Translations under genes and position numbers: made by a program | Part shown: positions 50,522 through 50,954 of the stretch, one piece after another | Position numbering within the stretch: the first letter of the stretch is position 1 | How the letters are laid out: every line of letters begins with the position of its first letter | Notes under the pieces: generated by a model | Databases searched by the model: none | Seen by the model: only the letters and a program-made list of their open reading frames with translations | Told to the model about the DNA's origin: nothing | Assembly: GCA_019911965.1 (NCBI GenBank) | Contig: JAIOJF010000045.1 | Span: 1-64,000 of the forward strand | Reading direction: 5' to 3' | Source of the DNA: Paracoccaceae bacterium | GTDB lineage: Bacteria; Pseudomonadota; Alphaproteobacteria; Rhodobacterales; Rhodobacteraceae | Length of the DNA stretch: 64,000 nt

Positions 50522-50833
50522 TCACCGGTTGCTGTCGATCCAGCGCGACATCAACCCGGCATCCCGGTAGCATTCATCGGGCACATCGCGGCGGCGGCGG
50601 CGGGCGATCTTCTCGGCATAGGCCACCTGACGCGAGGTGGCCCCTGCGCCACGATGAGTCTGCGTCCGCGCCTTGTTGAATGCCGCCTGATGCAGACCGA
50701 TCCAGTTCGACAGCGCGGCTCGATCCTGCGTGCTGTCGGGCGGGATATCCGTTTTCAGCTGGCGGCTGATGGCACGCGCGAAATCGACCTGGGCCGGGGT
50801 CGGCGCGGGGATCTGGGTGTTATCGGCCTGCAT
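50522..50833 (-). CDS. Small protein with a duplicated helical motif, preceded by a LexA box
   Basis: The 103-residue protein holds two copies of one motif: residues 12-45 (TPAQVDFARAIS ... DRAALSNWI) and 66-99 (TSRQVAYAEKIA ... DAGLMSRWI), 54 residues apart and alignable without gaps. I do not recognise a named family; similar short repeats occur at the ends of some nucleic-acid enzymes. The start ATG 50833 follows CAGGAGG. A GTTC-N7-GTTC LexA box at 50867-50881 overlaps its promoter, so expression is probably SOS-controlled. It stands alone, on the strand opposite the yjb operon and with bioY upstream of its promoter. Confidence 0.7.
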   Translation of the reverse strand: MQADNTQIPAPTPAQVDFARAISRQLKTDIPPDSTQDRAALSNWIGLHQAAFNKARTQTHRGAGATSRQVAYAEKIARRRRRDVPDECYRDAGLMSRWIDSNR

Positions 50834-50866
50834 GGCAACCTCCTGCGAAACGGGGACCGGATACGA

Positions 50867-50900
50867 GAACAAATATAGAACATTTGTTCCAATTGTCCAG
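50867..50900 (-). promoter_or_regulatory. LexA box (50867-50881) over a promoter (50872-50900)
   Basis: On the minus strand GTTC-TATATTT-GTTC is an exact match to the alphaproteobacterial LexA operator GTTC-N7-GTTC. A -35-like CTGGAC (50900..50895) and -10 TATATT (50877..50872) are 17 bp apart, and the -10 lies inside the operator spacer. LexA binding would block RNA polymerase. Confidence 0.75.
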
Positions 50901-50954
50901 TCCCCCGCAATCACAGGCGCGCGAGGTTGCGTTGTCGCGCCGGGGCTCGGGCCT

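Follow-up and report, generated by a model that had tools for sequence, protein, structure and literature searches.

The window, a stretch of 64,000 nucleotides from a Paracoccaceae bacterium, carries on its minus strand a small gene coding for a protein of 103 residues. As an earlier note on this DNA had claimed, the gene stands alone, with a BioY-like gene on one side and a convergent small ORF on the other (both named by reading their translations). Its features are as follows:

50522..50833, minus strand: gene of the two-repeat protein, 103 aa, from the ATG at 50833 to the stop TGA at 50524-50522; the frame is open and conserved in relatives.
50537..50638, minus strand: repeat 2, residues 66-99, better conserved than repeat 1 and placed with the final tail repeat of two Rhodobacterales topoisomerases.
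50699..50800, minus strand: repeat 1, residues 12-45, delimited by self-match and profile comparison.
50839..50844, minus strand: ribosome-binding site AGGAGG, 5' of the ATG at 50833.
50867..50881, minus strand: LexA box GTTCTATATTTGTTC, that is GTTC-TATATTT-GTTC, a perfect GTTC-N7-GTTC, assigned from sequence and conservation.
50872..50877, minus strand: -10 hexamer TATATT within the LexA box, assigned from sequence and from a -35/-10 layout common to 68 stacked upstream regions.
50894..50899, minus strand: -35-like hexamer TGGACA, assigned from sequence.

The -35-like and -10 hexamers are separated by a spacer of 16 nt. The perfect operator covering the -10 box, which the earlier note had pointed out, is thus present at 50881..50867 on the minus strand, with TATATT inside it. 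The span of 50522-50914 that had been given with it agrees with the longest GTG-started frame of 130 aa, but not with the 103-residue protein, which is coded by 50833..50522. Directly upstream of the LexA box, at window positions 50878-50889 of the minus strand, lies an inverted repeat, GAACAAATGTTC, which overlaps the first GTTC of the box and seems to resemble the Gram-positive LexA box.

The duplication within the 103-residue protein is genuine. Its highest-scoring ungapped self-alignment of 34 residues pairs residues 12-45 with residues 66-99, exactly the two alignable motifs previously proposed, with 12 identities in 34 positions and a BLOSUM62 score of 66; composition shuffles of the protein gave a best score of 26, and none of 500 reached the observed value. 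Further, profiles of the two halves, built from 33 sequences with the window's included, align over 39 ungapped columns with a probability of 97.9 and an E-value of 3.8e-13. The protein is basic (pI 10.4, charge about +6), and the pI ranges from 9.6 to 11.6 across 76 family sequences. It had been described as not recognised, and this description stands: searches of Pfam, NCBIfam and PHROGs with the window protein gave no match, and a sequence search of the PDB returned nothing usable. A Pfam scan of 33 members recovered seven scattered weak families, none of them covering most members, the commonest being found in 7 members with a best E-value of 0.022.

A single GTTCN7GTTC match taken alone is weak evidence because the bare pattern is close to its expected count in the window (2 versus 1.46 expected, with at least 2 in 46 of 100 shuffles) and occurs 127 times genome-wide versus 68 for the reversed control pattern. 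The window count is what favours regarding the box as a chance match and the gene as lying outside SOS control. We consider this very improbable given the conservation of the operator in orthologous loci: a perfect same-strand box lies upstream of the gene, in its promoter, at 75 of the 78 free-protein loci (window included), against an expected chance of roughly 0.4% per 250 nt by arithmetic from the genome count. The first 33 loci were scanned over 200 nt of upstream sequence and the remainder over as much as 250 nt. The loss of the operator from orthologous loci, which the earlier note had named as a ground for rejecting its claim, was therefore not observed. When the loci are collapsed at about 70% protein identity into 36 clusters, 33 of these have the box in every member. 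Among the three loci lacking a perfect box, L011 and L021 each carry a site with a single mismatch, and L119, whose start is rearranged, has none. Some of the chosen ATGs are internal, with the box still in range, two frames (L116 and L122) are shortened, and L123 was left out of this count as a topoisomerase.

When 68 upstream regions are stacked on the box, a TTGA-type -35 element, the box and a TATA-type -10 element appear in fixed placement, with the box usually in the 17-nt spacer between the two promoter elements and sometimes, as in the window, on the -10 element itself. Three loci (L028, L111 and L121) carry both layouts in tandem, one box in the spacer and one over the -10 element. 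In a Caulobacter paper, GTTCN7GTTC is given as the LexA box and GTTCttgttatGTTC is reported at two early mitomycin-C-induced genes (PMC12700426). The variant GTTCTTGTTATGTTC, found at several relatives of the window gene, is letter for letter the box of these two Caulobacter genes.

The host genome displays the same motif at further genes: as a tandem GTTCN7GTTCN7GTTC upstream of lexA, and as GTTCN7GTTC upstream of recA and of a gene with an MmcB-like domain. The lexA and recA boxes are oriented opposite to their genes, unlike the same-strand boxes of the two-repeat family. Taken together, the conserved operator and the recurrence of the motif at lexA, recA and the mmcB-like gene point to a LexA-type family, and we consider it close to certain, as predicted from the operator, that the two-repeat gene is LexA-controlled, in line with its earlier description as an SOS-type gene. 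It thus resembles the alphaproteobacterial LexA regulon in having GTTCN7GTTC over the core promoter, but differs from it as a candidate member without a family model or a recognised repair function. The part of a LexA prediction for Dinoroseobacter that was available (PMC6473078) does not name the gene, and the open-access literature searched yielded no account of a topoisomerase-tail protein under SOS control. Elsewhere in the host genome, two overlapping GTTCN7GTTC boxes lie in a GC-poor gap beside a frame that reads by eye as RecG-like (G000:C21:113417-113442, L052).

The earlier note had suggested looking for fusions of the motif to repair enzymes, and the search uncovered the motif as the tail end of type IA topoisomerases, seen for the most part on plasmids. 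The repeat ends proteins annotated as DNA topoisomerase on plasmids of Phaeobacter, Bradyrhizobium, Agrobacterium, Variovorax, Xanthomonas and Thermovibrio, and has no annotated function in them. Pfam confirmed the Topoisom_bac core in seven cases (L034, L035, L038, L123, L075, L159 and L160). HMMs of the repeat matched the region after this core in 6 of 6 topoisomerases, which had themselves been found via the repeat, so that the count is no frequency; none of 300 shuffled controls scored above 5 bits. In a tree of 81 repeats, which with its 38 columns is a guide only, every one of the 35 second repeats falls into a group with the final repeats of two Rhodobacterales topoisomerases (support 0.975); of the 35 first repeats, 29 cluster with five other topoisomerase repeats, at a weaker support of 0.74. 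Compared with the free second repeats, the last repeat of one of the two Rhodobacterales topoisomerases reaches at most 58% identity and that of the other 76%.

Thus, the two-repeat protein is, with very little doubt from sequence comparison, a homologue of the C-terminal tail of plasmid-type type IA topoisomerases, and it fits a colinear arrangement with the last two repeats of that tail. The tail of the Phaeobacter piscinae plasmid pS26_106 enzyme (WP_052463934.1) has in common with it a repeat of about 38 residues, in tandem and in the same order. The topoisomerase tail follows a catalytic core, whereas the window gene is free-standing, lacks a catalytic part and is preceded by a promoter and LexA box of its own; the absence of a joined type IA core from the 103-aa product makes it a relative of the tail rather than a topoisomerase.

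Kinship with a different small protein was also considered. YebG of the gammaproteobacteria is a small SOS protein under LexA control with no function assigned to it, and in size and control it resembles the two-repeat protein; in addition, Pfam weakly matched one of the topoisomerase tails to YebG (E 0.082). However, profile comparison with 24 YebG sequences detected no sequence relationship (probability 0.4 and E 0.15 for the whole alignment; probability 1.1 and E 0.048 for repeat 1), there was no PF07130 match, and a search of the host genome for YebG gave no match. A distant homology to YebG (PF07130) is therefore rejected as exceedingly improbable, the likeness being confined to small size and LexA control.

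A further idea is that the free protein regulates a topoisomerase or serves as its decoy, competing with the tail of a plasmid topoisomerase III for a docking site or substrate during the SOS response. This idea draws on one free second repeat, from a protein of another genome, that shares 76% identity with the last repeat of the G022 topoisomerase, and on G022 itself, which holds free copies plus a tailed topoisomerase. Against it, the sole type IA topoisomerase core found in the host genome is TopA-like, and repeat searches of the same genome found no tail on this protein and retrieved just the two-repeat gene itself; consequently, the latter need not serve a tailed topoisomerase. L123 was likewise the one topoisomerase among the fetched same-family rows, though a single-sequence search may miss others. 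We therefore rate a decoy role as unlikely.

The distribution of the gene is patchy. Matches were found in 67 of 295 same-family genomes, a figure that includes the window's own genome and genomes with fragments alone or with stop-containing copies. Since 228 of the 295, among them the sole same-genus genome in the draw, have no match, the gene does not belong to the core repair set. The same-family matches make up 83 rows, of which 30 were taken as loci first and 46 were fetched later; the 7 left out are three short fragments in G222, second gene halves in G220 and G134, and copies with stops in G212 and G009. Three loci (L001-L003) come from a separate collection, with possible species overlap with the same-family loci.

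Across the class, 8 of 385 genomes match, three of them belonging to the same family and the others comprising a topoisomerase by Pfam (L075), another by eye and repeat match (L076), a broken one by eye (L077), a different small protein (L074) and a frame with a stop (L078). Across the phylum, 10 of 398 genomes match: five of the same family, two with topoisomerases (L159 and L160) and three with small one-repeat frames (L161-L163), the match in L163 containing a stop. The frames of L161 and L162, from other Proteobacteria, are 136 and 112 aa long and are without Pfam or NCBIfam matches; they have one recognisable repeat, as in the window protein, but it is single and follows an unrelated N-terminal part. 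Every complete two-repeat free form examined belongs to the window's family or to named Rhodobacterales records. A partial match was found on a Pseudorhizobium plasmid, and matches labelled 'hypothetical protein' on Xanthomonas and Campylobacter plasmids could be either free forms or topoisomerases.

Among mobile elements, a search at E 0.01 matched 158 of 72,556 plasmid records, mostly from Rhodobacterales (73 from Pseudosulfitobacter) and including a few topoisomerases, but no phage record out of 50,697; viral contigs, scanned three times by pattern, likewise yielded no relative. Strains with a relative of the gene include Paracoccus denitrificans PD1222 and Phaeobacter porticola P97. The asymmetry between plasmids and phages favours the main rival to the reading we develop below, namely that the protein is a plasmid-derived establishment factor, selected there because it protects or processes incoming single-stranded DNA or blunts anti-plasmid responses when conjugation triggers the SOS response of the recipient. 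Chromosomal copies, the window's included, would then be domesticated descendants.

The plasmid contexts lend this rival further weight. In five of the seven plasmid settings viewed for the free gene, genes of plasmid-maintenance or anti-defence type are nearby, namely RadC and DUF932 (L036 and L149), a Strawberry-notch helicase with toprim (L149), toprim (L151), and zincin/ArdC-type and ParB-like genes (L150 and L152), with the neighbours Pfam-checked for L149 and L150 only; a sixth (L153) features an antitoxin and repABC. ArdC binds single-stranded DNA (PMC7213743), and leading regions are described as rich in anti-defence genes and SSBs (PMC11541004). On two plasmids such a gene block lies on that side of the relaxase gene on which a leading region would be expected, and four of the five tailed topoisomerases viewed on plasmids are in or near transfer genes, the Phaeobacter one being the exception. 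In the relaxase-proximal region of one of these plasmids (L165, pDY25-B, 80-107 kb of the record), genes for multiubiquitin, ThiF-type, ImmA/IrrE and HipA proteins are also seen beside ArdC.

However, the two-repeat gene is divergent from the block, and the relaxase gene is some 19 kb away from it on pP97_c and some 28 kb away on pDY25-B. Its orientation is opposite to that of the surveyed leading-region anti-defence genes, which are on the transferred strand (PMC11541004), the leading side here being judged from the relaxase gene rather than from oriT. Moreover, the seventh plasmid neighbourhood, from Paracoccus, has neither group of genes and presents an ordinary metabolic setting, and the neighbours, seen by eye, are varied at nine further loci taken from other collections (window included), with local pairwise synteny between L005 and L007 and between L002 and L003, and transposase-like neighbours at L009. 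LexA control would also be expected to delay, not favour, the earliest expression. On balance, we consider an establishment role possible but the less probable of the two readings.

We instead favour a nucleic-acid-binding SOS accessory. In full, we propose, from the sequence evidence and with a rough probability of 0.6, that the gene codes for a free-standing relative of the topoisomerase tail under LexA control, which would act in trans as an SOS-induced, nucleic-acid-binding accessory. LexA would sit on the -10 box and repress the promoter until relieved by DNA damage or by the conjugative entry of single-stranded DNA. The small basic protein would then be made, and its two helix-loop-helix repeats would bind DNA, most likely single-stranded or branched, or else a partner that is itself bound to DNA, for example SSB or TopA. 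The outcome would be help to repair, to topoisomerase action or to replicon upkeep during the SOS response. This action is suggested by the relationship to a DNA enzyme's tail, the basic character of the protein and the DNA-handling neighbours on plasmids. The odds we attach to the successive steps are rough: putative nucleic-acid binding, which the earlier note had raised together with binding to a repair enzyme, seems to us somewhat better than an even bet, and action in trans on a topoisomerase or SSB is a more tentative suggestion. As an alternative to DNA binding, the repeat could be a protein-docking part.

The helix-loop-helix units derive from AlphaFold2 models built from 4 sequences, the best of which (pLDDT 70.9, pTM 0.38) has two such units, the second with a pLDDT near 85; the other four models have pLDDT values of 44.5-56.8. 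Fold searches with this low-confidence model gave no Foldseek match at E 0.001 and no significant solved fold, with a best Z of 6.1. The second repeat aligned to the Red-beta C-terminal domain with an SSB peptide (8tfu) at 1.8 A over 41 residues with a Z of 4.4, a lead only, as Z values under 8 are common among small helical folds.

A DNA-handling tail thus appears to be used in the window as a damage-response protein of its own, a candidate SOS regulon member that is unannotated and shared within a large marine and soil group. It links the two-repeat protein to the unstudied tail of plasmid topoisomerases, and a protein of 103 residues, being far easier to purify or delete than a topoisomerase, offers a concrete test of what that tail does. 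Likewise, the gene's presence on many plasmids, preceded by LexA boxes of the host type, is relevant to the way in which incoming plasmids exploit the SOS response of the recipient.

A parallel was observed in DnaE2. The host DnaE2 frame (G000:C2:183327-186206, L170) is 978 aa long, covers model positions 3-938 of 1047 and ends just before the OB domain, with no perfect box in the stretch examined and a one-mismatch site at its start. The OB domain is coded by a separate small gene on another contig (G000:C25:13572-13942; L057, L172 and L173) with its own LexA box, GTTCTATCTTTGTTC. No description of a split DnaE2 was found in the open-access literature searched.

Because two detached tails come under one regulator, it is conceivable, if rather speculative, that the SOS response of the Rhodobacterales deploys detached C-terminal DNA-handling tails, those of the topoisomerase and the DnaE2 OB domain, as LexA-controlled trans-acting proteins. 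The OB domain was found in 105 of 120 family genomes; many of the matches lie in small open frames, and many others in frames that reach about 1,100 aa or longer; truncation of the polymerase is known for the host genome only. At all 12 fetched OB-gene loci (host's included), which as the best-scoring ones are biased to the detached kind, a perfect LexA box lies 35-76 nt upstream of the match.
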